Positions 22,823-45,837 are shown, counted from the stretch's first letter. The stretch is DNA of 58,049 bases from a virus (IMGVR_UViG_3300030090_004029:1-58049), one strand, 5' to 3'. The notes: generated by a model not told the origin, from the letters alone. A program made the numbers and translations.

Positions 22823-23488
22823 ATGAAGTATAGAATTTGCACTTTAAGTGAATTAGTTAATAGTCCATATAATCCTCCACAACGAACGGATAAAGGGATT
22901 TCTGCCTTAGCAACAAATATAAGGAAGAATGGATTGTTACAACCTATCGTAGTCGCTGATGAAATGACTATTATTGATGGTCATAGACGTAGATCAGCAC
23001 TAGAAATGATAGCGAAATCTGATGGTATTAAACCAAGTAAGGTAAAAGTATCCATTATACAACATAACAGTAAATCTGAAGAGTTGTATGATGCCTTATT
23101 TATCTCATCTAACAAAGACACCATGTTATTAAATGGTCATCAATATCTTTGGAGATACATGAAAGGTGCTGAAATACCTAAAACACATCTCAGTAGGATA
23201 AAATGCCTTGAGAAATGGTTAGGTAAGAAATATGCAAGAGGTATGTTTCGTAGAATACTAGATAATGGTCATTCTGCTAATACATATCAAATGTGCATTG
23301 GTATCTACAGAACATACACTAGCAAAACTACCAGTTCTCATATGAGAAAAGTAGCATACTATTTATTAAATGTAGAGAATTGTTTCAGAGTAAAAGCAGC
23401 AATTGCCAATTTTATTCCTGTTGATACATTGGTCAAGTGTGTTAATAACAAGAAACAGATCGTTACTGAGTTCTCTGTAGGTAGTTAA
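22823..23488 (+). CDS. ParB/Srx-fold domain protein
   Basis: 221 residues. The N-terminal ~100 residues match the ParB N-terminal (ParB/sulfiredoxin) fold: 'NPPQRTDKGISALATNIRKNG' then LLQPIVV and the nucleotide-binding signature IDGHRRRSAL. ParB-family proteins of this shape bind CTP and act as DNA-spreading clamps or, in some phages, as transcription regulators or nucleases. The C-terminal half is helical and basic with no recognised HTH. It is preceded by ~500 bases of structured non-coding DNA. A regulatory role in early transcription is inference. Confidence 0.75.
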   Translation: MKYRICTLSELVNSPYNPPQRTDKGISALATNIRKNGLLQPIVVADEMTIIDGHRRRSALEMIAKSDGIKPSKVKVSIIQHNSKSEELYDALFISSNKDTMLLNGHQYLWRYMKGAEIPKTHLSRIKCLEKWLGKKYARGMFRRILDNGHSANTYQMCIGIYRTYTSKTTSSHMRKVAYYLLNVENCFRVKAAIANFIPVDTLVKCVNNKKQIVTEFSVGS

Positions 23489-23598: not shown

Positions 23599-24249
23599 AT
23601 GAGTAGAGTAGAAATACAAGAAGATGGTCAAATACCTATCTTCACAGCTGTTTATCTTGTTAACCCAGTACTTGATAGAGAAAATGGTAAAGCACTGTTT
23701 GAAATAAGTCCCTTTCATGTAACATATCACTATGAACCAGGGAGTCCATATTTTCCAGAAGATGTACAAGATGGTGATTGGACACAGATAATACATGAAG
23801 GTATTTATGATGATGGTGAAGTATTAGCTTCACAGGTAAAAATATTGCACCCAGAAATACTTGATGAAGGAAGTCAGGGATTTATGACCTATCAATGTGA
23901 TAGAAAAGTTGAAGACAATGGAGAGATACAGTATATACCTGGATATCCACTTCATATTACATGGGATTCAGGAAAATTACCACCTGCAGTAGTAGGTGAA
24001 AGACTGGAAGAGTTGGGAAGAAAGTCTAGAGAAGAACGTGATAAATGTTTTACACAAACAAATTACAAGCAAAGTTATTCTCAGAACAAGAACCCATTCA
24101 TGAAACAATCTATATTGGAAGCTAATGGTCTTGATGGTGATATCTCAGCAGATAGAGAAGTTTATATTGATAGAATAAAACCAATATTCAGTTTCTTTAA
24201 CCCAATAGGAATATGGAAAGTATTTAAGGCAGATCCTAAAGAAGATTAA
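23599..24249 (+). CDS. Hypothetical protein upstream of Ubl gene
   Basis: 216 residues. The first ~130 are beta-rich (IPIFTAVYLVNPVL, FHVTYHYEPGSPYFPED, GYPLHITWDSGKLPP). A charged helix follows (VVGERLEELGRKSREERDK), then a polar tail with 'FFNPIGIWKVF'. Not recognised. It directly precedes the ubiquitin-like gene, so it may be a target, adaptor or E3-like part of that cassette, or an unrelated early protein. Confidence 0.65.
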   Translation: MSRVEIQEDGQIPIFTAVYLVNPVLDRENGKALFEISPFHVTYHYEPGSPYFPEDVQDGDWTQIIHEGIYDDGEVLASQVKILHPEILDEGSQGFMTYQCDRKVEDNGEIQYIPGYPLHITWDSGKLPPAVVGERLEELGRKSREERDKCFTQTNYKQSYSQNKNPFMKQSILEANGLDGDISADREVYIDRIKPIFSFFNPIGIWKVFKADPKED

Positions 24250-24258
24250 AACTTGGGA

Positions 24259-24373
24259 GTGTAACCACACTTTAAAATGGACGTAATATGTAGGTGAAAC
24301 TCCTACACGCTGATCCCCGAACTGAGCTGCTTAGGTTTGGCATTAAGGATCACTGTCGAGCGGTCACTGACAG
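24259..24373 (+). other. Chain of RNA hairpins upstream of Ubl gene
   Basis: AGTGT/ACACT (24259-24272), TGTAGG/CCTACA (24289-24307), TGATCC/GGATCA (24311-24352) enclosing a 10-position stem with one mismatch (CCGAACTGAG/TTAGGTTTGG), and CTGTC/GACAG (24353-24373). The Ubl SD (AAGGAGGTATCAT) follows at 24396-24409. Confidence 0.5.
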
Positions 24374-24409
24374 AAAGTTTTTGTTAACAAACAAACAAGG
24401 AGGTATCAT

Positions 24410-24628
24410 ATGTCAGATGGTATAACCATTAATCTGTGCAGAGATACAGCTGCTTTCATCCCAACTCCAACTGGTGCATCTACTGTAGGTGAGCTAAGAA
24501 GTGAGTTGAATCTTACGGATGAAGCAATTAACGTGAATCGTGTAGTAGCAAATGATGATCACCAATTGCGTGATAATGATAATGTTGCTGTTGTAAAGAC
24601 CAATAAAAAGGGTGGCGAAGGTAAATAA
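24410..24628 (+). CDS. Ubiquitin-like (beta-grasp) protein with maskable di-Gly tail
   Basis: 72 residues. A core like MoaD/ThiS-type beta-grasp proteins: an N-terminal strand (ITINLCRDT), TVGELRSELNL as strand plus helix entry, then INVNRVVANDD, 'LRDNDNVAVVKT', and a tail KKGGEGK. The Gly-Gly lies three residues from the end, so Glu-Gly-Lys would have to be clipped to expose it, the normal maturation of ubiquitin. The JAMM peptidase encoded two genes on could do this. Neighbouring E2-like, JAMM and E1-like genes make conjugation more likely than sulphur transfer. Strong SD. Confidence 0.75.
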   Translation: MSDGITINLCRDTAAFIPTPTGASTVGELRSELNLTDEAINVNRVVANDDHQLRDNDNVAVVKTNKKGGEGK

Positions 24629-24652
24629 ACATTTATCGGTTCCGTTAAGATA

Positions 24653-24710
24653 ATAGTTGATGGGGAAATTGGTTAATAATAATCCTGTACTTTATTTCCC
24701 CTGATACTAT
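24653..24710 (+). other. Long stem with symmetric UGAU/UGAU internal loop
   Basis: ATAGT+TGAT+GGGGAAAT (24653-24669) faces ATTTCCCC+TGAT+ACTAT (24694-24710): 8 and 5 perfect pairs flanking a 4x4 loop that can form tandem sheared G-A pairs between U-U pairs. It ends 1 base before AAAGGAG of the E2-like gene. Confidence 0.6.
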
Positions 24711-24723
24711 AAAGGAGTATAAA

Positions 24724-26193
24724 ATGATAAGAGAATTTATCAAAAACATGGATTTTTCACACATACCGATCGGCCCACAAGCTGATCTTATAACTGCTGT
24801 GGAAGAACTAAACAATCAAGTACCTCATTTTCTAGGTATTCAATTGGAAGTTACCAAGAAATTTCAATGGAAACGTGGAACATATGATCAAATGGAATAC
24901 TTAAGGTCTTACTTTCTGGGAACTTTAGGTAAATATAAGAACGTATTAGAGGTATTTGAAAAACCAGAAAGAAATCGTCAAGCATATTATCTTATGAGAT
25001 TCAGACGTCAATTAAGTATGGTTGAAAGAATGCTACAGAGAAGAAGATTTAGAAATGAAATATGGATTGATGATGATGATGTTGTAGAGGATCTAAAGAA
25101 CGATGCAATTGAAAAAATTGTATCAGCCTTTGATGACTTTGAAGCATATAATAAATCTATGAATAATTGTGATATAGAATATTATGTGTACAACGAACAA
25201 AACCATAACTCTGATGATTTTCAAAAACTTTTGAATGAACTTATAAATGATTCATTTTCATTTACTGAGAACAAAACAAAGATTGTATTAAGAGAACATG
25301 GTACTAGAGTATATCTTATTCATCCATTCAAAGATATTATCATGAATGTATATGTATCAGATAGAACTACACCAATGTATAGATTTAACAATGGAAGTGT
25401 TCTAGGTATGTATAGAGTAGATGGAGCTAGACTTATAAGTCATGCATTAGGTATGACGAGAAGACGTGCTTTTGGAATAGGTGGATCTGATTTCTGGTAT
25501 AAACCTATCATACAAGGATTAAAACATCCATTTCTTCAGTATCCTGGTAGAAGTTATTCTGAGGGAGAAATAGATCCGAGTACTCATCCAGATACATGGA
25601 ATATTAGAATGAATCAAACAAGTAATTCATGTTATGGAAATTTCAACAACCTAAATACTACAGATATGAATATTGTAAAGTGGTGTGAAACTACTTATTC
25701 ATGGTTGACAACATTTAGAGTTGGCGATACTCATCCATTAAATAATATAAGAACAGGTTATTATGGGAGTCCAAGAACTCATGATAAAGATGTTCATGAT
25801 GATTATTATGACATAGTTGGCACGGATGCTGGAAGCTGTTACAATCAAATGACAAGTTATTTTGATACAGCTACAGAACGTCAATCTATTTGTCAAGCAA
25901 ATTGCTCAGAACGTCTTATGTTACTATGTAATGGATTTAAGAGAGATGAAACTACATTGAAACGAGAAAAACTTGTATTGTGGGTTAGAAAAAATGGAGC
26001 AGAATGGAATAAAGCTATAGAATACTTTAATCCAGAAGATACATATCCAGGGAATTTCAACTGGAGTTTTGAAGGTGTTGATGACAACTATCCTACAAGA
26101 TATACAAGAATAAATTCACAAGAGGATTTACAAAGTTCAATGTTAGAATGGGTTAGAAATAACAGTGATGCTGTTGTGGAAGATCTACGTTAG
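24724..26193 (+). CDS. Putative E2-like protein of the Ubl cassette
   Basis: 489 residues, much longer than a bare E2 (~150). Residues 1-170 are helical and charged. The middle is beta-rich ('TRVYLIHPFKDIIMNVYV', 'GSVLGMYRVDG'). His-Pro at 268-269 (or 288-289) is followed by SCYGNF with Cys303, resembling the HP...C(L/Y)G catalytic block of bacterial E2 proteins. A helix with KWCETTYSWL follows. The C-terminal part has clustered Cys ('SICQANCSERLMLLC'), possibly a metal site. If correct, Cys303 would carry the Ubl thioester. Adjacency to Ubl, JAMM and E1 genes is the main support; fold is unproven. Confidence 0.5.
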   Translation: MIREFIKNMDFSHIPIGPQADLITAVEELNNQVPHFLGIQLEVTKKFQWKRGTYDQMEYLRSYFLGTLGKYKNVLEVFEKPERNRQAYYLMRFRRQLSMVERMLQRRRFRNEIWIDDDDVVEDLKNDAIEKIVSAFDDFEAYNKSMNNCDIEYYVYNEQNHNSDDFQKLLNELINDSFSFTENKTKIVLREHGTRVYLIHPFKDIIMNVYVSDRTTPMYRFNNGSVLGMYRVDGARLISHALGMTRRRAFGIGGSDFWYKPIIQGLKHPFLQYPGRSYSEGEIDPSTHPDTWNIRMNQTSNSCYGNFNNLNTTDMNIVKWCETTYSWLTTFRVGDTHPLNNIRTGYYGSPRTHDKDVHDDYYDIVGTDAGSCYNQMTSYFDTATERQSICQANCSERLMLLCNGFKRDETTLKREKLVLWVRKNGAEWNKAIEYFNPEDTYPGNFNWSFEGVDDNYPTRYTRINSQEDLQSSMLEWVRNNSDAVVEDLR

Positions 26194-26206
26194 AAAAGGA
26201 GAAGGA

Positions 26207-27097
26207 ATGGATTTTTACATTTCACAAAAAGATTGGAAAAAGGTCATAGATTATGCCCAAGCATCTTATGATCAATTCAAATCTGAAGTAGGTGGTTTTA
26301 TGGTCGCAATGCCAGATAAAGATGGAAACATGATCATATCTGAGCCTGAGATCTTAAAACAAGAAGTAACAGGTGGTACAACTGAAATGGATAAGGATGC
26401 AGTAGCAGATTATTATGTCAAATGTGCTGAAAAGCATGGTGCTGGTGTAAGATTTGTATGGTGGCATTCACATGCTAATATGGATGCATTTTGGTCTGGT
26501 ACAGATACAAATACAATGGAAGAATATTCTAGCGGAGATTGGTCAGCATTTCTTGTGGTCAATATTCGTCAAGCATATAAATTCAGAGTTAGTGTTTGGA
26601 ATCCAATTAAAGCACATGAAGATATAGAGCTAAAGATACTTGATGCAAAACCCAAGAAATTGCCAAAAGGTGTTGTAGATGCTGTATCAAAATTGTGTAG
26701 TAAACCTGAATTAACTGCTAATGGAATTACTCATTGGAATGGTAGTTATAACAGATCATGGGCAAATCCACAACAAACATCATTATATGGTGGTAGCAGT
26801 TTAGACTTTACAAAAAAGACAGGAGATGATATTGATATTGATGAACCACTCTTGTCAGCCACTGTTGATGTAGTTGATGAATTTAATAGTTTGTATACTG
26901 AAGGTGAATTCACATTCAAGGATTGGTTGAACTCAATAAAATCATGGAATGCTATTCTTGAAAACAAGAAGCAAAGCTTTAATATTGTTGAACTTACAGA
27001 GAATGAATTACATGAAAAGTGTGGATATTATACTGGATATGATACACTGGATTTCTTAAATTTGGGAGAGAAGGATGAGAAGAACATCAAGGTTTGA
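26207..27097 (+). CDS. JAB/JAMM metalloprotease (deubiquitinase-like)
   Basis: About 296 residues from the ATG at 26207 (SD AAAAGGAGAAGG); an upstream in-frame ATG at 26165 overlaps the previous gene. It has the complete MPN+ signature: Glu27 in SEVGGFM, His87-Ser-His89, Ser97 and Asp100, spacing HxH-x7-SxxD. The JAMM domain spans about 1-145 and is followed by a ~150-residue domain of unknown fold, mostly helical at the end. Such enzymes cleave after the terminal Gly of Ubl proteins, processing precursors and removing conjugates. It overlaps the E1-like gene by 23 bases. Confidence 0.88.
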   Translation: MDFYISQKDWKKVIDYAQASYDQFKSEVGGFMVAMPDKDGNMIISEPEILKQEVTGGTTEMDKDAVADYYVKCAEKHGAGVRFVWWHSHANMDAFWSGTDTNTMEEYSSGDWSAFLVVNIRQAYKFRVSVWNPIKAHEDIELKILDAKPKKLPKGVVDAVSKLCSKPELTANGITHWNGSYNRSWANPQQTSLYGGSSLDFTKKTGDDIDIDEPLLSATVDVVDEFNSLYTEGEFTFKDWLNSIKSWNAILENKKQSFNIVELTENELHEKCGYYTGYDTLDFLNLGEKDEKNIKV

Positions 27098-27734
27098 AGA
27101 CATATTCAATAACTTTGATAAATTTCATTTCCATATACTTGGTTGCGGAGCTATTGGTAGTTCCGCAGCCATCCAAATAGCCAGATCAGGTGGTGAGAAG
27201 TTTACATTATATGATAATGATAAGGTTTCTCAAGAAAACATTGGTGTGAGTCAATATGGTTTCTCTGATGTTGGTAAACATAAGGTTAATGCATTAGAAG
27301 ATTATCTAAATGAAATATGTGACGATCCAATTATTATTACTGAAAAAGATAAATTCAAGAATAATTCTCAATACATACCTCATGGAAATGATATCATAGT
27401 CTTAGGATTTGATAACATGTCAAGTAGATTACAGGCTGTGGAGATAGCTTGTAGTGTAAAGAAATTAAAACCGTTAATATTAGTAGACGGACGTATGGGA
27501 GCACAAACATATCAACAGTATACATTCAAAAGACCAAGTATTGATAAGTATAAAGAATGTTGGTATGAAGATAAAGACGCAAGTAGTGAACCATGTACAG
27601 CCAAAGCAACAAGTTACTGTAGCAATATGGCTGGTTCATTTATTACAAATGCTATATCTAAAGTAGCAAACAACCATATGTATGAGAAAGAGATATTGTT
27701 TCACTTTCCATCCATGACACTAATGGCAAAATGA
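27075..27734 (+). CDS. E1/ThiF-like Ubl-activating enzyme
   Basis: 219 residues, a minimal ThiF/MoeB-type adenylating domain. It has the nucleotide loop LGCGAIGS, YDNDKVSQENIG, GKHKVNAL, the GFDNMSSR motif and EPCTAKATSYCSNMAG near the end. Cys174 in the last is where E1 enzymes place the catalytic Cys, next to the usual A-x-T-S-Y run. The E1 'NxxR' arginine is replaced (NIGVSQ). It should adenylate the Ubl tail and pass it to the E2-like Cys. Last gene of the cassette, overlapping the JAMM gene. Confidence 0.87.
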   Translation: MRRTSRFEDIFNNFDKFHFHILGCGAIGSSAAIQIARSGGEKFTLYDNDKVSQENIGVSQYGFSDVGKHKVNALEDYLNEICDDPIIITEKDKFKNNSQYIPHGNDIIVLGFDNMSSRLQAVEIACSVKKLKPLILVDGRMGAQTYQQYTFKRPSIDKYKECWYEDKDASSEPCTAKATSYCSNMAGSFITNAISKVANNHMYEKEILFHFPSMTLMAK

Positions 27735-28146: not shown

Positions 28147-28296
28147 ATGTTAGTAATGGACATAGCAGAATGGATAGCAAATATGCTTATACTAGGGATA
28201 GCTGTTGTCGTATGGGCAGTAGGGATATTTCTATTAGCAATGATAGTATCCATGGCAAATAAATTTATAAAAACACATATAATAAAGGATAGCTAA
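28147..28296 (+). CDS. Small membrane protein
   Basis: 49 residues with a strong SD (AGGAGGAGAA). MLVMDIAEWIANMLILGI begins one long hydrophobic span (~11-37), and the basic tail is KFIKTHIIKDS. The stop overlaps the next ATG (TAATG), implying translational coupling to the recombination ATPase. Function unknown. Confidence 0.65.
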   Translation: MLVMDIAEWIANMLILGIAVVVWAVGIFLLAMIVSMANKFIKTHIIKDS

Positions 28297-29042
28297 TGAA
28301 ATGTTTGATGTTTGATCTTGAACGTGGTTCACAAACACTTGGAAGCACTGATGATATACAAGAGATGTTTGGATATCCAGTGCTTGCACCTACCACATTT
28401 GATCAGTTCAAAAAGATAATATCTGATCTTTATACTGTTCAAAAAGCAGTACATAAGACAAAGATAGGTGATCTTGAAATAGATCAAGAGGTCTTAGAGA
28501 CCATACCCAAGAATGGTACTCAAATAGACGCATTGATACTTGATACATTCAGTGAATTATCAAAAAAGTATCAAAGAAGCCTTGTTGATAAAACAGGTAG
28601 AATGAAGATGCAAGACTGGGGTAAACTAAAGAATACCCTTGATATGCTTCTTGAATTCATAACCAGAATACCAGGTGTTCTTGTTATGACCGTCCATGGT
28701 AAATTAAGAGACCTTGATGATGGAACTACAAAAGTATTGCCATATATAGATGGTAGCACCAAGGAAGATATAAGCAAATGGTTCGATTTTGTATTCTATA
28801 CAAGAACTGTTGAAGCTCCAAATGGTGAAACTAAATATGTTTGGCAAACAAAGCATACTGAAAAGTATGATCACGCTAAAGATAGAACAGATCTATTACC
28901 TTCTGAGATTCCCCAAGATTTTCAATTGGTATTAGATGCTGTAAAAGAAAAGAACTTCACATCTGCAAAGATCCTCATCATAGGAAGTCCAGGATCTGGT
29001 AAGACATGGAGTTTAAGAACCTTAGTTAATAAGGAGTCATAA
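28296..29042 (+). CDS. Sak4/AAA_24-like P-loop ATPase with C-terminal Walker A
   Basis: 248 residues. The order of elements is unusual. The protein starts with MKCLMFDLERG, which in Sak4-type ATPases follows the P-loop. The Walker B LILD (Asp83) and the MTVHGK strand come next, then HAKDRTDLLP. The Walker A GSPGSGKT (residues 230-237) lies 11 residues from the C-terminus. This is the arrangement of a circular permutation cut between the P-loop helix and the next strand. Sak4 proteins promote single-strand annealing/exchange in phage recombination; the SSB gene directly downstream fits. Identity to the family is by motif reading. Confidence 0.7.
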   Translation: MKCLMFDLERGSQTLGSTDDIQEMFGYPVLAPTTFDQFKKIISDLYTVQKAVHKTKIGDLEIDQEVLETIPKNGTQIDALILDTFSELSKKYQRSLVDKTGRMKMQDWGKLKNTLDMLLEFITRIPGVLVMTVHGKLRDLDDGTTKVLPYIDGSTKEDISKWFDFVFYTRTVEAPNGETKYVWQTKHTEKYDHAKDRTDLLPSEIPQDFQLVLDAVKEKNFTSAKILIIGSPGSGKTWSLRTLVNKES

Positions 29043-29701: not shown

Positions 29702-30004
29702 ATGAAATACATACAAGAAAAAACAATAGATATGATAAAACATCTATTAACAAATTATCCACATCTTAGAGACGATGATAACAAACTCCTTGCTACAGTA
29801 TGGTATCACAAAATGCCAGAAATAGAAGAAGGTGTAATGGATTTTCTACATACACTTGCAGAAGGTAAATTACCATCATCTGAATCTATAAGAAGGTGTA
29901 GACAGAAATTACAAGAGCTTAACCCATCTCTTCGTGGTGAACTCTGGGATAAAAGACATAAAATGCAAGATCAAGTAAAGAAGGAAATCAAGGAGATGGA
30001 ATGA
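29702..30004 (+). CDS. Hypothetical phage protein (LPSxESIRR type)
   Basis: 100 residues, wholly helical. It contains 'GKLPSSESIRRCRQKLQE', a pattern I associate with small unknown proteins near phage helicases and replication genes. It overlaps the primase-helicase start (ATGATT). A basic helix suggests nucleic-acid or replisome contact; function unknown. Confidence 0.65.
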   Translation: MKYIQEKTIDMIKHLLTNYPHLRDDDNKLLATVWYHKMPEIEEGVMDFLHTLAEGKLPSSESIRRCRQKLQELNPSLRGELWDKRHKMQDQVKKEIKEME

Positions 30005-31743
30005 TTAAAGAATTTGCATTATCACTATCTAACAGACATCATTTCCATGAAAGCAATAAGATGTCACAGCTCGAAGGTACACCCCAAGATACCTTTATGT
30101 CCTTATGGGACTATGATAAATATGTTATAGAATACTTTAACAAGAACAACAAGCTTGCTGGATTCGATGGATTGATATATATGCCTGATGAATTGATACT
30201 AGATGTTGATGGAAAGAATCTTGAGCAAGCAAAGCATAAAACATTAATGCTAATAGAACTACTGTATAAAAAACAAATACCATATCAAATATACTTTAGT
30301 GGTCGTGGATTTCATGTAAATATTCCATCTTCTGCATTTAAATGGGAACCCTGTAAGGATCTTCATTTGAAAGTAAAAGATAAACTTAAAGCTGTTGGAG
30401 TATATAAATATGCAGATCCATCTGTCATTGACAAGACAAGGATAATCAGAGTCCCTAATACCTTGAATACCAAGTCTGGAAAATGGAAAATACCACTAAA
30501 TGAAACAGAATTTAGAAAGTTCAATTTAAACTTCAAGAATGTTCCAAGAAGAGACTTTAAATACCCAGAAATGAAGTGTGATCCTGTATTTGATGTATTG
30601 GACAGGATAACTAAAACACCAAAAGAAACTGAGGTGGTCAAAAGTGAACTCGGTAGAGATCCGGATCCAACAAACTACACATGCATACAATTAATGCTAA
30701 AAGGTGTTAGTCAAGGAAGTAGACACATGACAGCATTAAGACTAGGTTCACATCTAAGATGGAGATACCCTGAAAGTGTTGTTAGATTGATCATGGAAGA
30801 CTGGAGACAGCGTGTAGATAAACATGATGTACCATTCACTGAAGAAGAATTAGATAAGATCATAACATCTTGTTACACTGCTAATGATGGTAGTGGGTAC
30901 AATTACGGTTGTAGTGACTCTATAAAGGATTCGTTATGTCAGCAAACATGCTTTCTATACAAATCTAAGAAAGACCAATCTGTAATGTCAGCTACTGATA
31001 TGGAAAATGTACTGATAGATTTCTATACAAGCAATGTTAAACCCATTAATTTCAATGAGTTATATGAACAAGTAGTAAGCTTTCCTATTTATCCTGGTGA
31101 AGTAGTATTGTTACAAGCACCTCCCAAAAGCATGAAAACAATGTTACTTATGAATTGGATAAATGCGTTCAAGAAGAATACTTATATGATGGAACTTGAA
31201 ATGTCCCCAAGACAAATGATGTCAAGATTTATTATGATAGAGAAAGGATGGAACGAAGAAGATCTAGAAGCACATTATTCAAGAAATAAAAATGGCATTG
31301 ATGTAGACTTTGACTGGCTACAGGTAGATTATAATTCTTGCTATCCATATGAGATAGAAAAGAGAATACAAATGCTACCTGAAAAGCCTGAAATACTTGT
31401 AGTTGACCACCTAGGTCTATTAAGAAGTAGGATGAAGGACAATAACATGAAAGTTGAAGAAGCATCTCAAGTATTAACAGAAATTGCTGTACAATACGAC
31501 CTGATAGTATTTGTTATAAGTGAGATCACAAAAAGTGCATTTCATGAAGGGATGAACATAGCATCGTCAAAAGGTTCATTTAGAGTAGCATATAATGTCA
31601 ATAAAGTATTATCCTTAGAGCCTTTATTTGATATAAAGGAGAAGAGCTTGATAAAGGGATTAAAACTTGAAAGTACAGCTAATCGTGAAAAGGAAACACT
31701 ACATGTTGACCTTTCATTAGATGGATTGAGGTTAGTAGGATGA
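30001..31743 (+). CDS. Primase-helicase (AEP primase fused to RecA/DnaB-like ATPase)
   Basis: 580 residues. The N-terminal part has archaeo-eukaryotic primase motifs: ILDVDG (Asp68, Asp70), the SGRGFHV motif at 100-106, and Asp144 in 'DPSVIDKTRIIRVPNT'. A linker with four Cys around 300-325 (YGCSDS...CQQTC) may bind zinc. The C-terminal ATPase has an atypical Walker A APPKSMKT (373-380) and Walker B ILVVDHLG (Asp469), as in RepA/DnaB-like helicases. It should prime and unwind during phage replication, with SSB as upstream partner. No polymerase is in the window. Confidence 0.85.
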   Translation: MIKEFALSLSNRHHFHESNKMSQLEGTPQDTFMSLWDYDKYVIEYFNKNNKLAGFDGLIYMPDELILDVDGKNLEQAKHKTLMLIELLYKKQIPYQIYFSGRGFHVNIPSSAFKWEPCKDLHLKVKDKLKAVGVYKYADPSVIDKTRIIRVPNTLNTKSGKWKIPLNETEFRKFNLNFKNVPRRDFKYPEMKCDPVFDVLDRITKTPKETEVVKSELGRDPDPTNYTCIQLMLKGVSQGSRHMTALRLGSHLRWRYPESVVRLIMEDWRQRVDKHDVPFTEEELDKIITSCYTANDGSGYNYGCSDSIKDSLCQQTCFLYKSKKDQSVMSATDMENVLIDFYTSNVKPINFNELYEQVVSFPIYPGEVVLLQAPPKSMKTMLLMNWINAFKKNTYMMELEMSPRQMMSRFIMIEKGWNEEDLEAHYSRNKNGIDVDFDWLQVDYNSCYPYEIEKRIQMLPEKPEILVVDHLGLLRSRMKDNNMKVEEASQVLTEIAVQYDLIVFVISEITKSAFHEGMNIASSKGSFRVAYNVNKVLSLEPLFDIKEKSLIKGLKLESTANREKETLHVDLSLDGLRLVG

Positions 31744-31940
31744 TAGCGATCATAACAACAAAAGAGCTTGAATGCCAACATCCTAAAGATGAAATGGAGT
31801 ATCAAGCAAGAGAAGAAGATACAAATGTTCCTGAAAGTCTTAGTTGTGGAATGTGTGGAAAGGATCTAGATCCAGACATATTAGAACCAGATTGGGACGC
31901 AATAGCAAAAGAGGACAATGATGAGAAGAACAATGAATGA
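31740..31940 (+). CDS. Hypothetical small Cys-containing protein
   Basis: 66 residues, overlapping the primase-helicase stop (ATGA). It contains 'LECQHPKDE' and 'SCGMCGKDLD', a spaced Cys/His and CxxC pattern that could hold one zinc, then an acidic tail. Function unknown. Confidence 0.6.
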   Translation: MIAIITTKELECQHPKDEMEYQAREEDTNVPESLSCGMCGKDLDPDILEPDWDAIAKEDNDEKNNE

Positions 31941-32415
31941 AATAACTACTGATATAATGACTCAGCAGATGAACATGGACATGGCAATGGATCCAGAACA
32001 GTTCAATGTACAGATACAAGAGTTATTTACAGAGTTATACGAAAAAGAAGATGGTATATACTGGTTCTACCGTGATAATGAATCCAAGATGCAAATGGTA
32101 GACGAGCATATAGATAAATGTAAAAAGATAAAGAAAATGCTGCACAATACAAATGAACGGGTTAAGCAGCTTGTTATCGAATCCCATGCAGAATTGAAAA
32201 CAATGCCCAAGAATTCTGTTTTCAATCCTCTTAAGATAAGAAAATCCGCTGGTGCAGTTGAAGTAATAGACGAGAATGACATACCTGATGAATACTGGAT
32301 AACCGTTCAAACAAAGAAACTTGATAAAAAAAGAATACTAGAAGAGTTAAAAGATGGATCCAAGATACCTGGAGTACGACTTCTAAGAAAGAACTTCGTA
32401 GGAGGATTCAGATAA
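31933..32415 (+). CDS. Gp157-like protein
   Basis: About 160 residues from the ATG at 31933. The central helix is coiled-coil-like. The C-terminal half 'FNPLKIRKSAGAVEVIDEND', IPDEYW, KLDKKRILEELKDG and 'IPGVRLLRKN' matches the Siphovirus Gp157 family, associated with phage recombination/replication genes and once proposed to confer phage resistance. The exact role is not established. It overlaps the next gene by one base. Confidence 0.75.
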   Translation: MNEITTDIMTQQMNMDMAMDPEQFNVQIQELFTELYEKEDGIYWFYRDNESKMQMVDEHIDKCKKIKKMLHNTNERVKQLVIESHAELKTMPKNSVFNPLKIRKSAGAVEVIDENDIPDEYWITVQTKKLDKKRILEELKDGSKIPGVRLLRKNFVGGFR

Positions 32416-36891: not shown

Positions 36892-39800
36892 CTAATATAG
36901 ACAACCTTTACCGTTTGCACTTTCCTTATCAAATACATTGTCAGGTATCCTTTGTTTTATCCTAAGCTTATCTCCTGCTGCAGTTCTAACTGTGATCGGA
37001 TCTGCAAACTGTCTGTTCAGCAAGTTATGGCTTGCTTCTATTTGTGCAAAATATGGACTTGCAAACCATCCATTTGATAGTGACTTAACAGTATTGGCAA
37101 AGGCTCCAAGATTTTCCCATCTATATCCATCAGCATTCATGTATTTATATCCTTCAGACATTAGATCTTCTTCGTATCTTTCACCACGATATTGTTTTTC
37201 AACATTTTGTATCATTCTTTTTATAGCAGGTTGCATATTGATCTGTTTATTATCTAATCCCCAATTGAACATTTGATTCATTAATCTTTTATTTACTCTG
37301 TAATAAGGCATTTCTGTTGTACCATCTGATAGATATTTACCAGTCATAACCTGTGGTTGCAATACATAACGCATTAGAAGAGCAGCTTGATCCATTTCAG
37401 TTCCACCTCCAGCTATCCTATGTCTCCATTGTCCCATGAATGCATCTATCATATTTTGTTCTCTACCAGATGAATAATCCCATACATCATTAGCAAATGT
37501 TCTGTCGTTCTTTAGTGATTTGATAGTATTGCTATAAGAATTATCCAAACGCATTCTTAATTGATCGACGTCATACATAAACATCTCTCTATCTACTGGA
37601 TCTGATATTAAATTCCTAGAGCTCAACCTTCCAACACCAGTAACTTCTTTCCACGCCTCTGAGTATCTAGCTTCAATAGTTGAAGAACTTTCTCTTACCA
37701 TTGGTCTTTTATCTATTAAGTAGCTTTTATTCTTTCTTACCTCAAATTTATCACCAGCCTTAAACCATCCAATAGGTTTTAAGCTACCATAATCTACATC
37801 AATACTTTCTATTTCATGATCTATTAACCTAGGATTTCCTTCCTTAGTGCCTACCTTCTTTTTTATTCTACCGTTTATTTCATAGACAAGAGCATCTACT
37901 TTTAATTCTTTTGGATAACTTTTTGTAGCACCTTTAGATGCTTTTATAAGTTGAAGATTCTTTTTATCTATTACCATATCTTGAGCAGCTTGTTTATCAA
38001 TTATTCTAATTGCATCTGAAACATCTGCCAGTCTACTCTCTAACTTTTGTAGCTTTGTAGGATTTACAAACCTTTCTTCACTAAAAAATCTTAAGGAATC
38101 AGCAATATTCCTATGTTCTTTTTGTAGTATTGTTCTAACGTGTCCTCTTGTCAAAGCGTTTTTAACAGTATTTGGATTGCTTGTTGCGTCTGTTTCTGCA
38201 ACCAAATTAGGTATCTTGAACTCTTGCCAGTTATTTAATGGATTCATATTGAATGCTTTGTGCATTGCTACTCTATCAACCAGTCCATTAACAAGATATC
38301 CCGCAGATGTATGTTTAGATACAGCAAGATCAGGCATATCAGGGCTATTATACAATCCCTTTGTCATTACTTCATCTAAAACTTTTCCTCCAATACTATA
38401 CTCGAATGCAGTATCAGACTTTTCTTTAAAATTCCATATTTCTTTACTTGGTTTTACTCTCCCCTCTCTAAGCTTTTGTAGGAATTTACCTACTTGAGTA
38501 CTTGAACCAACATCTTGAATACGATCTTGAAAATATTCATTAATAAATTGTCTTTGAAGGTTATCTGCCTTCTTATGTTCTCCTATATATCTTAACATAG
38601 ATATTTCAGACATTATCTCTCTAGTAATAAAATCAGTAGGGTTATCTAACAGTGCTTTTATCTTTCTATGGCTTGTTTTTAATTCCCATGTTTCAGGTGA
38701 TCTGCTACCTGCATTATCCCAAGTATCATTAGCCATTTTATTAGCTTCGTTCATTGTTCTTAATATTATTTCAAAACCCAATCGTTGCACATCTTTATTC
38801 TGACCTTGCCCATAAGCTCCCTTTTGGGTACCAAATGGAGCATCGTCTCTTACAATACCATCTTTTGAATGCCTTGATTCAATAGATCCAGGTGGAAGAG
38901 TATAATCTGCGGGTACATCTCCCCATAAAAAGTAATTTCTTAAAGCATCCTTAGCCATTAATCTATTATATCCACCATGTATATCTACACTATTTTGAAA
39001 TATATCCATCATCCTATCAAGGACAAGCATATCATTTGAACTTAATTCACCTTTTTTCCCAATATCCTTTAAGAACTGCTCGCCATTATATTCTAGTCCG
39101 GCATTTTCCATCCACGATAAGGCACGCCTTGATGATATAATACTGCCAATTGCTTTTCTTGATGTAGATAAATGGTTGGAATATTCAGAAAAACCTATAG
39201 CTGATTCATTTTGTCCAGCTTTAAATTTGTTTTTGATCTCCTTTATACCAAATATATTAATATCCCCAGGTGTTATACCCTTTTCTAGCATATTATAATC
39301 TGACTTGTGACCCATATCTCTTGCATAGTCCCTAACAAGTTGATGAGGCATTTTCAAATAACTATATAAATGATCACCATCATTATCACGTTGCAATGTT
39401 GTTCTAAGATCATGTGCATTTACTTGTATTACCCCATTCATTTCATTGCTATTTATTCTATCTACACGCATGACTGGCTGATCCTTTGCTATCTTAGGAA
39501 TAGCATTAACAGATGCTCCCAATGCTGGTTTCATTGCTTGTAAAACATCTGGAGCAAGTTTTTGTAAGCGAAGTCTATTTCCCTCTATAGTTACTTCACC
39601 GCCAGAAAGCAATCTATGTGCATGAACAAAATCAAGATTGTGATCTCTTATTAAACCACCAAGCTCATTCAATGCTGTTTTTACATTTGTTTTAAAAGAT
39701 TCGCTAGTACTCATTTTATCGGCAAATGCAGTATTATCTACAGATGTGATATCATTTTGACCACTTCTATTTCTTCTAGCTATATAGTGCTGTGCTGGAT

Positions 39801-42800
39801 CATATGTTTCATAGAAAGAACTAAAAAAATTAAACCCTTCTGAACGATTAGGCCCTTTGAGATTTTTATGTGTATCAAATTGTACTACATGATCAACACC
39901 ATTTTCATCTCTGAAAACAAATATCTTTTCATTAAGATCTTTCATTTTCTTTCTTGCTGTGTTATCTGGTAATGCAACTCCTCCAAATTGTATAGCTTTA
40001 TTGTATAATTTATCTCCTAAAGCTGGTGTTCCATTTTCTACTATTTTAGATCTTAACTCAGCAAAAACTGGATTAGAAAGATTACCTTTAACATCAGGAA
40101 TAATAAAGTTATCTTCTCCATAAGTAGTAGGTACCTTTGTAAGCATTTTATAGTCTTCATTTCTTAATATCTTATCTAACTGAGCCCTGACCAATGGATT
40201 ATTGGAGGATATACCCATGTCTATCAATTCTCTGGTTAGTCCCATTGCACCTTCAGTATAGACTAAACCTTTAGATTCTCTTTCAGCGAAGACAGCTCTT
40301 ATAAAATCAGGCCCATCACCTATCATTGATTTTAAGTTCTTTCTTTCTTTTAATATTTCTGTAAGTCCCATCCACTCTGTTGCCCGTTTTACATGACCAG
40401 GGCTTTGCCAGTCAAACATGGATGATGATATATTAACACCCTGAACATTCTTTGATGTGAATTGAACACCAAGACCATCAATATTTAAATTCATTAGGTT
40501 ATCAGGCCCCATATTTTGAAATATATCTCTTGCCCAATTTCGAGCTTGTCCTGTTTGTGAATGCTCAAGAGGTATAATTGGATTACCATTTAAATTATTT
40601 CCAGTAAATGATTTAGCAGATGACTCTCCTAGTAATAAGTTGATATTACGATTGGTCATTTTCCTAGAGATTGAAGGTATATAAACAGCAAAACCTTTAC
40701 CAAGCATAGAATTATCACCAGTAGAGAACATAATGGTCTTTGCTCCATTCCATTCACCTGATCCACCTTTCTGTGCCCATAACAGTTTAGCCAATTTTTC
40801 ATCTACTATTTTTGCACCATCCAGCATAGAGGATTTAAGACTTTTATAAGAATCAGTAGAAACATCATATATTTGTTTTCCAACAATTTCATTTACAACA
40901 CTGTTATTTACATACTCGCCCTGAACTTCAGTTAATTTTTCAAAAGATATTCTCCTATTATCAAATGGAGTTCCAGTTCGTTGTTGACTTACAGTATAAT
41001 CTGCATCTCTATTGAATACTTCATCTGCGATCACACCTACTGTATACTGCATATTATTATTTAATAATAGTTCTGAAAAATCCCTTACAGTTTGATCTGG
41101 ATGGCGTTGAGCGTTCCATCTAAGTGTTTTTTCATTAAACCTTTGAGTAGTACCACCATCAGATAAATATCCACGTTTAAACATATCTGATTCTATCTTA
41201 GCAAGGTTATTCCAATCAGGAGTTGCTTTTGAATGTTCTGCCATCCATGTATCGAATTGACCCGCTCTAGTATAATCTATGTGTTGCATTAACATCTTCA
41301 ATCTAAGAGATGCATTTGTATTTCCATCGGTAAGAAGATCTCCAAACATTTCAATAAATTTATTTGCTTCTACCTCACTTCTATCTCGTAATCTATCTGC
41401 TTTATTGGCAAACCAAAGTTCAAAATCTGAATTCAATTTTTTAACATTACTATCAGTGGCTACAAATATTATTCTTGAACCAGGGGAAGGTCTCATGTAG
41501 ATCAAGGGAGATATAGGAACCTTTGTTAGGCTTTCCATATACTTTCCATTGGGATCAAACATAAATCCAGAATCTTTCAATTCTTTCACAAGGTCTGTCA
41601 TTTTTCCCAAACGTAACTGACCATTGATCAATTGTTGTATCTCTAAAGGATCACCACTTTTATAAAAATCAATAGAGAACGTTCTATTCTTTTTAAATGT
41701 CCTTGTTGTTATAGTATCATCAAGGTGCCATAGTTCATAAGGTTCGTTTCTATCACCAGTTACATGCAACCGGTCATAAAAATCATCATTAATATTTGAT
41801 CTAAATTTACCATCTGAATTAAATTCTAATACACCAGCTTTTATTCTAGCTTCTTGCCTAACTCTACCATTTATCAAAGCATTTGCAAGTATATTACTAT
41901 CCTCTTTTATAAACTTACTCCAAAGATTGTAGGCTTCAGCTGTAGGATTATTATCAAAGATCCTTTTTCTTATCTCCATAAATGCATCTTCAACACTATT
42001 GGGATTAGTACGATCACGTATCCTTTTTACAAAAGCAGGATCTATCTCGTTGGGATCTGCCCTATCTACTATCCCATAATCCCTTGCAATATCTTGAAGA
42101 GTTCTTTGGTCGTGTTGTATAGTGTTTTTATTTAATGTCTTATTCCATAACTGCTTAGCCGTTTCTGCTATAATAGGATTTCTACTATTACTTAAAACTT
42201 GACCTACAATACCTTCATTTACTGACCTGACAACATCCAATGCTTTTGTCCAACTACCTGTTTCATTGTATTCCATTACTAATTCTGAAAAGGTTTTTTC
42301 TCTGTCCATAGCATCTGGTCTAAGCTCTCTCAATTTAGCACTTAGATCTTCAACTGCTTCTCTTGCTTGAATTGACTTCAATCCACCACCACTTCTACCA
42401 AGAATGGTCATGTTAATGATCTTATTTGTTATACTCTGAAATTCTCTTTTAGCTCTTCCTTCTCGGTTTAATATATCAGCAACTACTTCTTGTACTGATA
42501 ATATTGCATTAGAATTTTCCTTAACATAGTCTTGTGACATATCACCACGTGCAATAAATTGCTTTATTGTACTAAGATTTGATTCTAAGGAGGCTACCTG
42601 ATCTTTACTTACTCCCATATCAATAAGGGTTTCTATTTGCACAGCGATCTCATCAAGATGCTTTGGCTTGAGTGAGTTTGTTTCAAATGAGTGCTGTAAA
42701 TTCTCCATTGCAGTTTTTATACTTACAAGTTTTTCTTGAAGATTACTATTTGAAAATTGTATTTCAGATGTAGCTTTTATTCCATTTTCTAACAGGTCTT

Positions 42801-45800
42801 TAACAGTTTGATTTCCAATTGCTTTATCAACTGCTAATATTTTTTCTATAGTTAAGGATGAAAATTCTGGCCTACCTGTTTCTATTACAGAATAATCTGC
42901 TCTTTCAGCATTAGGCCCAAGTATTCTACTTATTCTATCCAATGCTGCATTGACCTTTTGCTGTGCTTCTAATGATTGAGTTGGTGGAAGATCTCTAGCT
43001 AGGTCTGAAACAAATTTTCTACTTGGTAATTGAGTTTTTCCCTCGTGTTGAAATCCAAGTCCTTCAGTACTTACAGCTTTTGCTACATAAACTGCTCTTG
43101 GATCAGCATTCTCCAAACCATAAGTTGTTTCTACAAGGTCTACCATACCTTCAGCATAGAAATTTTCTCTATACTGCTCAGGTAGTGAATTAAATCTTTT
43201 TGCAAATAAACCTGCAGCTGTTTCTATTTGTTCTATAGTTATTTCAGTATTCTGTCTTTTAGGATCCTTTGTTTTACCCCTATCAGGATGAGATTTCATT
43301 AATTCAAATAAAGGTCTTAATGTTTCTTTTGCCTCACTTAATCTAGCAGCATCTTTTTCTCCAACCGGTTTTTCAAATAAATAATCATCAATAGAATCCC
43401 TGAATTTTGATTTACTATCAACAAGATCAATTGTATTGAACATTTCAAGCATGGATCTTGATAGATTACCAGCATCTATGTCAGATGTATCTCCTATCAA
43501 TACCTTTCTTAAAAAATTCTTTGCACCAATTTGAGATGCTCTCCCCATAAAGTCCATATAGGCATTATCCCAAGGACTGTTATACAATCTCTTACCACCA
43601 TATTCTATATCTATGGTTTCCATCCATTTATCTGCTATCCTATTTAAACCTGAACTAAGTTCATCAATATTTTTTACTTTTAATGTACTTACATCTTGAA
43701 CATCAGCAGCATCTGCCCTACTCATGGAATTCAATCTTTGCATAACTCTATTATAAGTAAATACACCATCCATCTCCATCATATCTGGGCCTTGTATTAA
43801 TTTCCCAACTATCTTATTTCTACCTTTAATTGCTGGATCGTAAGAAACTTCAATACCAGCAAAGTCTGCCATTTCTTGTATCATCTTACCATATATATCA
43901 ACAATTCTATCGGCAGGTCTTTCAGAAAGAACAGCCAGTGTACCCTCCCAACCTACTTGCTTTATAGTTCTACCGTTTTCTACTTCTATATTATCTATAC
44001 TTTTTGATAATTCATCAAGTGCTTTCTTATTCATGAACCTAGGATCTATCAATTCCTCTGGTTTCATCTCTGGATTACGCATCCTTTTTATCATATTATA
44101 TACATTTGCAAATTCAGAAACTTTTTTATGGTTGGTTGGACTAAAGTCACCAGCCTTATACGCTCTATTGCTTTTATCAGATAGTACAGTATCAAATGTT
44201 TTTTCTATTTGCTGACCTACAGGATCAGTTGCGAATGACGTTCCAAAAGTACCTTCAATTTCATCTCTTGTATAAGTTGCCATTCTTTGTTGAAGGATAT
44301 CAGGCTTTGCTCCTAATAGCTTCAATGCTTCGAAATATGGGGTGAATTCAGCCATATAAGTACGTTGGGTATCTCTACCCCAGGCTCCCCTACCTTTTGT
44401 CATTATAGCAGACATAAAGATATGAGATGCTAATTCTGGCCCTTCCATGTCATTGAACATTCCAGTAGCAAACATACCATGATTCATTGCAAGTACACCT
44501 AATCCCATTCTAGGAGCAGATGCAGCAATGTCCATTATATAATTCTTACCCCATTTACTCCTTAATTCTTGACCTACTGCTCCCTTATACTTTTCCAATA
44601 TCTCATAGACATGCTCCATAGGCATTCTATGTTTTATATTTTTTGCAAATAATGCATTCTCAACAGCATCAGCACCTAAGTATTGAGTACCATCTCTCAT
44701 ATTTATAGTACGATTACCCATACCTTTATTAATTATATCTTTAAAAGAACCTCTTGTCATTATATTTGCCATCCCCCTGACAACATCTTCACCATGTTCT
44801 TTTGCTATTTTTTGATAATTTGTACCCTTATATGAATTCCAATAAGCTTTTATACCATTTCCAAGGTTTTCTTTACCACCACCTGGGAAAAATCTTATTG
44901 CAGGAAAGGCAAGAGACATCATTGCTGAATGACTTAATGCTGTTTCAGTATCAAACGCTTCCCCTCTTAAATGTTCTGCTATCTTTCCAGCACCAACAGA
45001 ATGAATACCCATTATCAACATATCTTGAGCAGCCATACCAAGGTATTTAGATACACCTTCTGGTAGTCCCCCAGAAATGCCTCTTTCTACCCATTCAGCA
45101 ACATCATTTACATACCTTCCATCTGCTAGACCATCTACAAATCTACCAGCTATAAGATCTGCATCTCTCTGAGCTATTTCACGAAGCCCTGCATCTTTGA
45201 ATGCTTGTTTAACTGCAGTACTACTAGACATAGTAAGCAGTTTTTGTGCATTTGCTGCAGTAGTGCCACCTATTCCTAATTCATTTATCCATCGTATTCC
45301 AAGATCATCATCAACTACTTCTCTCAACCCTCTTTGTACATTTCGATCTAATCCTGATACTATTTCATCTGTACTCTTACCAGTCTTTTTCGCAGCAGCG
45401 TTAATACCTTTTAATATCTCATTTGTATCTTTAGTAGTGAACTTACCAGCCTGTTTAGCAAGGTCATCAATAAAATTATTACCAAGTCCTCTGGCAACCA
45501 TTCTTGATCCTCTGCCTAGTAAACCAAATGGCCCTACCGGTAAGAACAAGGATGCACCTTCACCAAGTATCCACCCAGTTCTTTCCATGGTATTCATTTG
45601 TTCCCAGTCCTCACCTTGTAGATCAATAGCAGACCATGTAACACCATGTACTGCACCTGCTCCAAAACTTTTAGCAAGGTCTTCAAATGTACCTCTTTCT
45701 ACAGGTTCTGGTTCTTCTGCTATCAAACCCTCGTATGTAGGGTATTCTATACCTGGAGGAGAAAAGTTAGGAAATGTAGTGACGCCCTGACGAGCACCCT

Positions 45801-45837
45801 GATTTAATATATTATAATATTCTTCTGGTAAAGGCAT
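36892..45837 (-). CDS. Giant virion protein with two-barrel RNA-polymerase signatures
   Basis: 2981 residues, the largest gene here. The N-terminal ~130 residues include a Gly-rich hydrophobic patch (GASLFLPVGPFGLLG) and long helical tracts follow. Two stretches resemble double-psi-beta-barrel RNA polymerases of the QDE-1/YonO/crAss-phage type. One is Asp1673-Gly with LAKLL followed by GKGFAVYIPS (Lys1714), like the KG....P barrel-1 motif. The other is 2121-2155, 'PVMRVDRI', GVIQV and then RDNDGDH with Asp2151, 2153 and 2155 as the metal-binding DxDGD. It sits among internal virion genes, so it may be injected and transcribe early DNA. The start overlaps the upstream stop (TAATG). Confidence 0.55.
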   Translation of the reverse strand: MPLPEEYYNILNQGARQGVTTFPNFSPPGIEYPTYEGLIAEEPEPVERGTFEDLAKSFGAGAVHGVTWSAIDLQGEDWEQMNTMERTGWILGEGASLFLPVGPFGLLGRGSRMVARGLGNNFIDDLAKQAGKFTTKDTNEILKGINAAAKKTGKSTDEIVSGLDRNVQRGLREVVDDDLGIRWINELGIGGTTAANAQKLLTMSSSTAVKQAFKDAGLREIAQRDADLIAGRFVDGLADGRYVNDVAEWVERGISGGLPEGVSKYLGMAAQDMLIMGIHSVGAGKIAEHLRGEAFDTETALSHSAMMSLAFPAIRFFPGGGKENLGNGIKAYWNSYKGTNYQKIAKEHGEDVVRGMANIMTRGSFKDIINKGMGNRTINMRDGTQYLGADAVENALFAKNIKHRMPMEHVYEILEKYKGAVGQELRSKWGKNYIMDIAASAPRMGLGVLAMNHGMFATGMFNDMEGPELASHIFMSAIMTKGRGAWGRDTQRTYMAEFTPYFEALKLLGAKPDILQQRMATYTRDEIEGTFGTSFATDPVGQQIEKTFDTVLSDKSNRAYKAGDFSPTNHKKVSEFANVYNMIKRMRNPEMKPEELIDPRFMNKKALDELSKSIDNIEVENGRTIKQVGWEGTLAVLSERPADRIVDIYGKMIQEMADFAGIEVSYDPAIKGRNKIVGKLIQGPDMMEMDGVFTYNRVMQRLNSMSRADAADVQDVSTLKVKNIDELSSGLNRIADKWMETIDIEYGGKRLYNSPWDNAYMDFMGRASQIGAKNFLRKVLIGDTSDIDAGNLSRSMLEMFNTIDLVDSKSKFRDSIDDYLFEKPVGEKDAARLSEAKETLRPLFELMKSHPDRGKTKDPKRQNTEITIEQIETAAGLFAKRFNSLPEQYRENFYAEGMVDLVETTYGLENADPRAVYVAKAVSTEGLGFQHEGKTQLPSRKFVSDLARDLPPTQSLEAQQKVNAALDRISRILGPNAERADYSVIETGRPEFSSLTIEKILAVDKAIGNQTVKDLLENGIKATSEIQFSNSNLQEKLVSIKTAMENLQHSFETNSLKPKHLDEIAVQIETLIDMGVSKDQVASLESNLSTIKQFIARGDMSQDYVKENSNAILSVQEVVADILNREGRAKREFQSITNKIINMTILGRSGGGLKSIQAREAVEDLSAKLRELRPDAMDREKTFSELVMEYNETGSWTKALDVVRSVNEGIVGQVLSNSRNPIIAETAKQLWNKTLNKNTIQHDQRTLQDIARDYGIVDRADPNEIDPAFVKRIRDRTNPNSVEDAFMEIRKRIFDNNPTAEAYNLWSKFIKEDSNILANALINGRVRQEARIKAGVLEFNSDGKFRSNINDDFYDRLHVTGDRNEPYELWHLDDTITTRTFKKNRTFSIDFYKSGDPLEIQQLINGQLRLGKMTDLVKELKDSGFMFDPNGKYMESLTKVPISPLIYMRPSPGSRIIFVATDSNVKKLNSDFELWFANKADRLRDRSEVEANKFIEMFGDLLTDGNTNASLRLKMLMQHIDYTRAGQFDTWMAEHSKATPDWNNLAKIESDMFKRGYLSDGGTTQRFNEKTLRWNAQRHPDQTVRDFSELLLNNNMQYTVGVIADEVFNRDADYTVSQQRTGTPFDNRRISFEKLTEVQGEYVNNSVVNEIVGKQIYDVSTDSYKSLKSSMLDGAKIVDEKLAKLLWAQKGGSGEWNGAKTIMFSTGDNSMLGKGFAVYIPSISRKMTNRNINLLLGESSAKSFTGNNLNGNPIIPLEHSQTGQARNWARDIFQNMGPDNLMNLNIDGLGVQFTSKNVQGVNISSSMFDWQSPGHVKRATEWMGLTEILKERKNLKSMIGDGPDFIRAVFAERESKGLVYTEGAMGLTRELIDMGISSNNPLVRAQLDKILRNEDYKMLTKVPTTYGEDNFIIPDVKGNLSNPVFAELRSKIVENGTPALGDKLYNKAIQFGGVALPDNTARKKMKDLNEKIFVFRDENGVDHVVQFDTHKNLKGPNRSEGFNFFSSFYETYDPAQHYIARRNRSGQNDITSVDNTAFADKMSTSESFKTNVKTALNELGGLIRDHNLDFVHAHRLLSGGEVTIEGNRLRLQKLAPDVLQAMKPALGASVNAIPKIAKDQPVMRVDRINSNEMNGVIQVNAHDLRTTLQRDNDGDHLYSYLKMPHQLVRDYARDMGHKSDYNMLEKGITPGDINIFGIKEIKNKFKAGQNESAIGFSEYSNHLSTSRKAIGSIISSRRALSWMENAGLEYNGEQFLKDIGKKGELSSNDMLVLDRMMDIFQNSVDIHGGYNRLMAKDALRNYFLWGDVPADYTLPPGSIESRHSKDGIVRDDAPFGTQKGAYGQGQNKDVQRLGFEIILRTMNEANKMANDTWDNAGSRSPETWELKTSHRKIKALLDNPTDFITREIMSEISMLRYIGEHKKADNLQRQFINEYFQDRIQDVGSSTQVGKFLQKLREGRVKPSKEIWNFKEKSDTAFEYSIGGKVLDEVMTKGLYNSPDMPDLAVSKHTSAGYLVNGLVDRVAMHKAFNMNPLNNWQEFKIPNLVAETDATSNPNTVKNALTRGHVRTILQKEHRNIADSLRFFSEERFVNPTKLQKLESRLADVSDAIRIIDKQAAQDMVIDKKNLQLIKASKGATKSYPKELKVDALVYEINGRIKKKVGTKEGNPRLIDHEIESIDVDYGSLKPIGWFKAGDKFEVRKNKSYLIDKRPMVRESSSTIEARYSEAWKEVTGVGRLSSRNLISDPVDREMFMYDVDQLRMRLDNSYSNTIKSLKNDRTFANDVWDYSSGREQNMIDAFMGQWRHRIAGGGTEMDQAALLMRYVLQPQVMTGKYLSDGTTEMPYYRVNKRLMNQMFNWGLDNKQINMQPAIKRMIQNVEKQYRGERYEEDLMSEGYKYMNADGYRWENLGAFANTVKSLSNGWFASPYFAQIEASHNLLNRQFADPITVRTAAGDKLRIKQRIPDNVFDKESANGKGCLY

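Follow-up and report, generated by a model that had tools for sequence, protein, structure and literature searches.

A predicted reversible ubiquitin-like conjugation cassette among the replication genes of bacteriophages

Ubiquitin-like conjugation in prokaryotes is known chiefly as a bacterial anti-phage defence, as in the CBASS and Bil systems. The marine viral contig IMGVR_UViG_3300030090_004029:1-58049 (the whole stretch of 58,049 nucleotides analysed is called the window) carries at positions 24410-27734, on the + strand, a cassette of four genes encoding a ubiquitin-like protein (Ubl), an E2-like protein, a JAMM peptidase and an E1-like enzyme. In our view the phage probably encodes here a reversible system for ubiquitin-like conjugation, made together with its replication genes. 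Gene content, gene order, the domain identity of Ubl, JAMM and E1 and the conservation of catalytic residues are established. Phages here own the whole set and carry it amid the genes for replication. This suggests that reversible protein tagging is run by some bacterial viruses themselves.

The four proteins and their catalytic residues

An earlier note, made from the sequence of the window alone, had described four adjacent rightward genes. Analysis of open reading frames (ORFs) recovered all four at the place and on the strand claimed, each preceded by a purine-rich ribosome-binding site. The window is recorded as a virus in IMG/VR and encodes portal, capsid and terminase genes. The cassette comprises the following features:

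24410-24628, + strand: Ubl, a 72-aa beta-grasp modifier, core end KKGG plus tail EGK (Pfam ThiS; AlphaFold2; Foldseek; K-x-G-G)
24611-24616, + strand: Gly68-Gly69 codons, predicted processing/conjugation end (invariant)
24724-26193, + strand: E2-like protein, 489 aa, predicted UBC-like core at about residues 160-352 (conserved Cys/Pro; HP[YF]I...VC motif)
25525-25530, + strand: His268-Pro269 of the HP motif (Pro invariant; His replaced in a minority)
25630-25632, + strand: Cys303, predicted E2 catalytic cysteine (58/58)
26207-27097, + strand: JAMM/JAB peptidase, 296 aa (Prok-JAB match; Rpn11-type PDB profile matches; invariant site)
26285-26287, + strand: JAMM E27 codon (invariant)
26465-26506, + strand: JAMM HxH-x7-S-x2-D motif, H87 to D100 (invariant)
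27075-27734, + strand: E1-like (ThiF/UBA) adenylating enzyme, 219 aa (Pfam ThiF; PDB profile matches)
27594-27596, + strand: Cys174, predicted E1 catalytic cysteine (74/74)

The earlier note had proposed a beta-grasp protein with a near-terminal Gly-Gly and had named the lack of a beta-grasp fold in the 72-aa protein as grounds for giving up the idea. The AlphaFold2 model of this one-domain protein has the fold (mean pLDDT 84), and the match to Pfam ThiS (9.6e-5, 23.3 bits) lies above the cut-off of 22.5. Ubiquitin-like proteins, SUMO, MoaD and ThiS were the best Foldseek matches of the model in the PDB, none of them below E = 0.001, and Caldiarchaeum ubiquitin was among the structural matches. 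All 48 distinct Ubls of the window's group contain K-x-G-G. Their tails range from 0 to 117 aa: 17 of the 48 end exactly at GG, 21 carry 1-3 extra residues and in four, which look like precursor fusions, the tail is 31-117 aa long. The Ubl thus combines a beta-grasp fold with a C-terminal Gly-Gly that would be exposed either directly or by predicted processing.

The JAMM protein scored slightly under the cut-off against Pfam Prok-JAB (1e-4), and the best PDB matches of its profile were Rpn11-type deubiquitinases, with a Caldiarchaeum Rpn11 homologue at the top. The metal site of JAMM deubiquitinases, E...HxH-x7-S-x2-D, is complete, and the residues predicted for it (E27, H87, H89, S97 and D100) proved exact and are invariant across the family in the window's group. 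ATG 26207 is the most likely start because a good ribosome-binding site is found there; the alternative GTG 26165 falls within the E2-like gene. All 17 Ubls that end at GG are paired with an intact JAMM, therefore tail trimming is not the sole role of the peptidase. This pattern suggests that JAMM may remove conjugated Ubl as well as trim tails.

The E1-like enzyme carries a single ThiF domain (Pfam ThiF, 4.5e-19). Cys174, which the earlier note had picked out, is present in 74/74 relatives, and the GCGAIG nucleotide motif, D47, D49 and N55 are invariant, so that the GxGxxG, D..D..N and catalytic Cys features of the E1 superfamily are all found in the sequence. MccB, UBA5, UBA6, ThiF and Cap2 were matched by the E1 profile in the PDB. 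A bacterial origin of E1 was rejected as a candidate, the genome scan giving only two weak matches, both in Bradyrhizobium.

The E2-like protein is the weakest part of the assignment; it is probably an E2. No meaningful family match was obtained in Pfam, NCBIfam, PHROGs, PADLOC or PDB sequences, and megablast and tblastn against named phages gave no match. The family motif consists of HP[YF]I, a variable loop and G-x-V-C-[LF]-[DG], i.e. a Cys in an HPN-like...G-x-[IV]-C context with a variable His. Among members with letters at the position, Cys303 is conserved in 58/58, Pro269 in 57/57 and Pro338 in all, and Cys394 is nearly invariant. A relaxed HP...C motif occurred in 54/60 family members compared with 0/394 other ORFs of at least 200 aa and 6/1200 shuffles. 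As its frequency is far above that in other ORFs and shuffles, the motif is not due to chance. The structural model (mean pLDDT 80.6) runs from a helix through a beta meander, the HP segment and Cys303 to a further helix, an order that fits the expectation for an E2. An N-P-x-N or G-P-L-N motif follows the post-Cys helix at a position which we take to correspond to the PNP..PLN loop of UBC. Six strong matches to viral proteins were found in the Foldseek viral library. Histidine-kinase-like PDB matches of the model all had E > 0.05 and were dismissed as noise.

Purifying selection acts across the cassette, most strongly on E1 and most weakly on the E2-like protein (dN/dS 0.10 and 0.49, the lowest and highest values, from one NG86 pair with dS near 1). 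The fast evolution of the E2-like protein might fit a part that recognises targets. The family also has a Cys-rich C-terminal stretch (residues ~375-400, often three clustered Cys) that possibly binds metal, and the E2-like protein of the jumbo phages described below has Cys-rich ends as well.

Conservation of the cassette among phages

A search of viral contigs with an E1 profile yielded 229 relatives, the best 80 of which were kept. Iterated hidden Markov models run on the ORFs of the E1-selected loci counted 82 E1, 75 JAMM, 62 E2-like and 54 Ubl genes. The neighbourhood search that the earlier note had called for found the order Ubl–E2-like–JAMM–E1 on one strand in 40/40 loci with >5 kb upstream of E1, a count that overstates independence because the loci were picked by E1 similarity and some contigs overlap or are near-identical. 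A primase-helicase lies near the cassette in 37/40 loci. Starting from the primase-helicase provides a less biased test: of the 19 such loci that extend 8 kb or more upstream, 11 had a complete cassette, eight had none detected by the profiles and none had a partial one. Being complete or undetected beside the primase-helicase and never partial, the cassette behaves as an accessory unit.

The gene order recurs in a distant group of phages, to which E1 similarity led. It comprises Flavobacterium and Bacteroides phages, and the same arrangement is present but unrecognised in crAss001 (gp79-gp76), DAC15 and the Flavobacterium phage Fpv1 (gp58-gp53). In crAss001 and Fpv1 the proteins are a Ubl-like domain ending in KSG, a protein with HSH...C-x-G, a JAMM protein and a ThiF protein. 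In a set of 85 loci (77 from a profile scan plus eight named ones, some phages appearing twice), all four genes were found in order in 77; the remaining eight are cut by contig ends (77/77 uncut loci). The E2-like His (70/70) and Cys (71/71), the E1 Cys (75/75) and the JAMM site are conserved. Between this group and the window's, homology is clear for E1 (hhalign E 1.4e-31) and weak for Ubl.

A third version was found in jumbo Xanthomonas and Erwinia phages, with a Ubl-like protein ending in KASGG, an 892-aa E2-like protein bearing HPHM...HGSLCLG, and ThiF; a JAMM gene was not located in this run. The cassette neighbours a primase and uracil-DNA glycosylase (UDG) in Crassvirales, UDG and exonuclease VIII in Fpv1 and topoisomerase genes in the jumbo phage. 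In phage records, E1 carries the annotation 'thiamine biosynthesis protein' or is called hypothetical; one recent record reads 'E1 enzyme family protein'.

Interruptions of the JAMM gene recur among crAss-like and Flavobacterium phages and fall on or close to the codons of the HSH active site (L108:3715-4764, L122:4319-4611 and L011:2943-3938, plus L129, L159 and L172). Rfam group I introns were recognised in L108 and L122, and a long ORF, annotated as an endonuclease in Fpv1, occupies five of the six gaps. Homing thus has a conserved target in the JAMM site.

Proposed function and relation to known systems

We infer each reaction of the system, the identity of the E2 and the targets as follows. 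JAMM would trim the Ubl tail to expose Gly69, a step unneeded in relatives already ending in GG. E1 would adenylate the Ubl C-terminus and then take Ubl onto Cys174, from where it would be transferred to Cys303 of the E2-like protein. The latter would attach Ubl to amino groups of target proteins, and JAMM would later detach it. An early role during infection is favoured by the constant location beside replication genes in three lineages, and presence in only some related phages disfavours an essential replication function. Together, these points tip the balance slightly to proteins of the host or its defences that are encountered at an early stage of infection, which we name tentatively as targets. 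A close second, held with a little more reserve, are the phage's own replication and recombination proteins. Here the primase-helicase, Sak4 and single-strand binding protein would be tagged as PCNA is by SUMO or ubiquitin, a sub-case of the same conjugation system. Such self-tagging agrees with where the cassette lies: the replication module for the window's group, Crassvirales and Fpv1, and the vicinity of topoisomerase genes for the jumbo phage; however, the cassette was not found beside 8/19 related primase-helicases and hence is not required for replication as such.

Several points weigh against a conjugation system. The evidence is computational throughout, and neither a target nor an E3 was identified for the cassette. 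The Ubl of the distant group terminates in SG, not GG, and a profile comparison of the E2-like proteins of the two groups gave no alignment. To these are added the E1-based choice of syntenic loci mentioned above and, for the E2-like protein, a motif His that a minority of relatives replace with Phe or Tyr. Foldseek with the full-length model gave no significant match in the PDB library, and profile searches with the protein gave no E2 family from either Pfam or PDB. For want of a significant fold or profile match to UBC, the 489-aa protein might be an unrelated enzyme or adaptor, with conjugation running directly from E1 as for SAMP or Urm1. We regard this as somewhat unlikely, given the invariant Cys in HP[YF]I...G.VC[LF][DG] after a predicted beta meander, the helix and N-P-x-N/G-P-L-N that follow, and the clearer HPH...GSLCLG of the jumbo phages. 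The HP...C block that the earlier note had read as E2-like is a conserved motif in a fitting strand order, and E2 identity is probable.

Two other readings would do without tagging by the phage. In a sulfur-carrier system, a ThiS/MoaD/CysO-like Ubl, a ThiF/MoeB-type E1 and a trimming JAMM would thiolate a nucleotide, tRNA or small molecule in replication. Pfam does name the Ubl ThiS, ThiF is the nearest NCBIfam model to E1, yet far below cut-offs, and the cassette sits amid replication genes. We nevertheless give this reading the least credence: the fourth gene always bears an E2-type Cys motif, 17/48 Ubls need no trimming yet keep an intact JAMM, the JAMM profile is closest to Rpn11, and no rhodanese, sulfurtransferase or biosynthetic gene was noticed among the conserved neighbours. 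It is also quite unlikely that the set serves counter-defence, JAMM stripping host CBASS or Bil conjugates, or Ubl competing with them, so that host immunity is jammed. This would agree with a gene content the same as that of BilABCD (PMC11354881), with the presence of the cassette in some relatives and not others, and with the E2-like protein evolving fastest. One protein would suffice for such a task, yet the phages retain E1, the E2-like protein and Ubl, catalytic residues included, and profile and defence-database comparison found the cassette no closer to Bil or Cap proteins than shared superfamily membership would make it.

Several known systems resemble the conjugation cassette without coinciding with it. 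Type II CBASS likewise combines E1 and E2 with JAMM (Cap3), but fuses the first two in Cap2 and includes a CD-NTase and effector; in the phages E1, the E2-like protein and Ubl are separate and a CD-NTase is not among the conserved neighbours. The PRTRC plasmid cassette has a ThiF-family protein and also JAB, a small Ubl and an E2-like protein; however, E1 scored 32.4 against a PRTRC_ThiF cut-off of 144.75 bits and no NCBIfam model matches the other three proteins. The Caldiarchaeum ubiquitin cluster shares with the cassette an Rpn11 homologue that is the best PDB match of the JAMM profile and a ubiquitin among the structural matches of Ubl, but is archaeal, and a small RING E3 was not seen in the phage cassette.

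The earlier note had compared the composition of the cassette with that of bacterial Ubl operons and of the Bil and CBASS defence systems. Like Bil, the cassette has four genes for Ubl, E2, JAMM and E1, the letter order of BilA-D being the order here, and JAMM is predicted to open the Ubl C-terminus. BilA has two Ubl domains, BilB a CEHH motif, and BilD inactive and active adenylation domains plus a Cys domain (PMC11354881). In contrast, the phage Ubl is single-domain and not of the two-domain ISG15-like kind, the phage E1 has one ThiF domain in 219 aa rather than the Bil architecture, and an HP..C motif is found with no CEHH motif seen in the cassette. The phage set lies within replication modules, whereas Bil lies in bacterial defence loci. 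Among operons 6a-6e of Iyer, Burroughs and Aravind (2006), 6d is nearest to the phage cassette, with a small stand-alone Ubl with C-terminal Gly, E2-like, JAB and E1 proteins; it differs by an additional alpha-helical enzyme and JAB-N domain and has a bacterial distribution (PMC1779556). The only phage Ubls in that study are tail-assembly ones (PMC1779556).

No described phage Ubl conjugation system was found in the open-access literature, most subscription journals lying outside this coverage, so novelty is provisional. The crAss phage papers examined for ThiF or ubiquitin made no mention of these genes. With the cassette recognised, the label 'thiamine biosynthesis protein', widespread in genomes of gut phages, would be corrected. 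We also propose, with due caution, that unrelated tailed-phage lineages (a marine group, Steigviridae together with Flavobacterium phages, and jumbo Xanthomonas phages) may share an old, virus-specific, reversible Ubl tagging that controls replication or host takeover; if true, this would be a regulatory layer so far undescribed for phages. Phage protein tagging is directly testable because some carriers are cultured, namely crAss001 (Bacteroides intestinalis), DAC15 (B. thetaiotaomicron) and Fpv1 (Flavobacterium).

The leader and the surrounding genes

The cassette is flanked by the following features:

24250-24409, + strand: leader, probable structured non-coding RNA (near-identity in L003; no Rfam match; weak covariation)
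28296-29042, + strand: Sak4-like AAA recombination protein (phrog_124, 6.5e-25)
30001-31743, + strand: primase-helicase (phrog_19 and phrog_16345)
31918-32415: end-protection protein similar to Mu Gam, within the replication module (phrog_253, 2e-24)

The downstream Sak4-like, primase-helicase and Gam-like genes agree with the earlier description of a cassette beside recombination genes, and synteny with such replication and recombination neighbours extends to scores of phage contigs. Upstream of Ubl, the 160-bp non-coding leader is 95.5% identical in L003, where the Ubl and E2-like proteins have strongly diverged. A structured RNA is likely: it would form hairpins, a few compensatory changes are present, covariation is weak and Rfam gave no match. 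Copies lie at L003:6644-6799, L004:6655-6813, L006:6319-6445 and L014:9073-9176, the one in L006 preceding a ParB-like gene and not adjacent to Ubl. Promoter and terminator scans yielded hits at chance level.

A ParB-like protein is also encoded upstream of the cassette in the window (22823-23488), and in L006 the ParB-like gene directly precedes Ubl. The 216-aa protein just 5' of the leader (23599-24249) is conserved in just 7/40 loci. Elsewhere, the window contains very large ORFs at 36892-45837 (2981 aa, no PHROG match) and 705-6449 (1914 aa).

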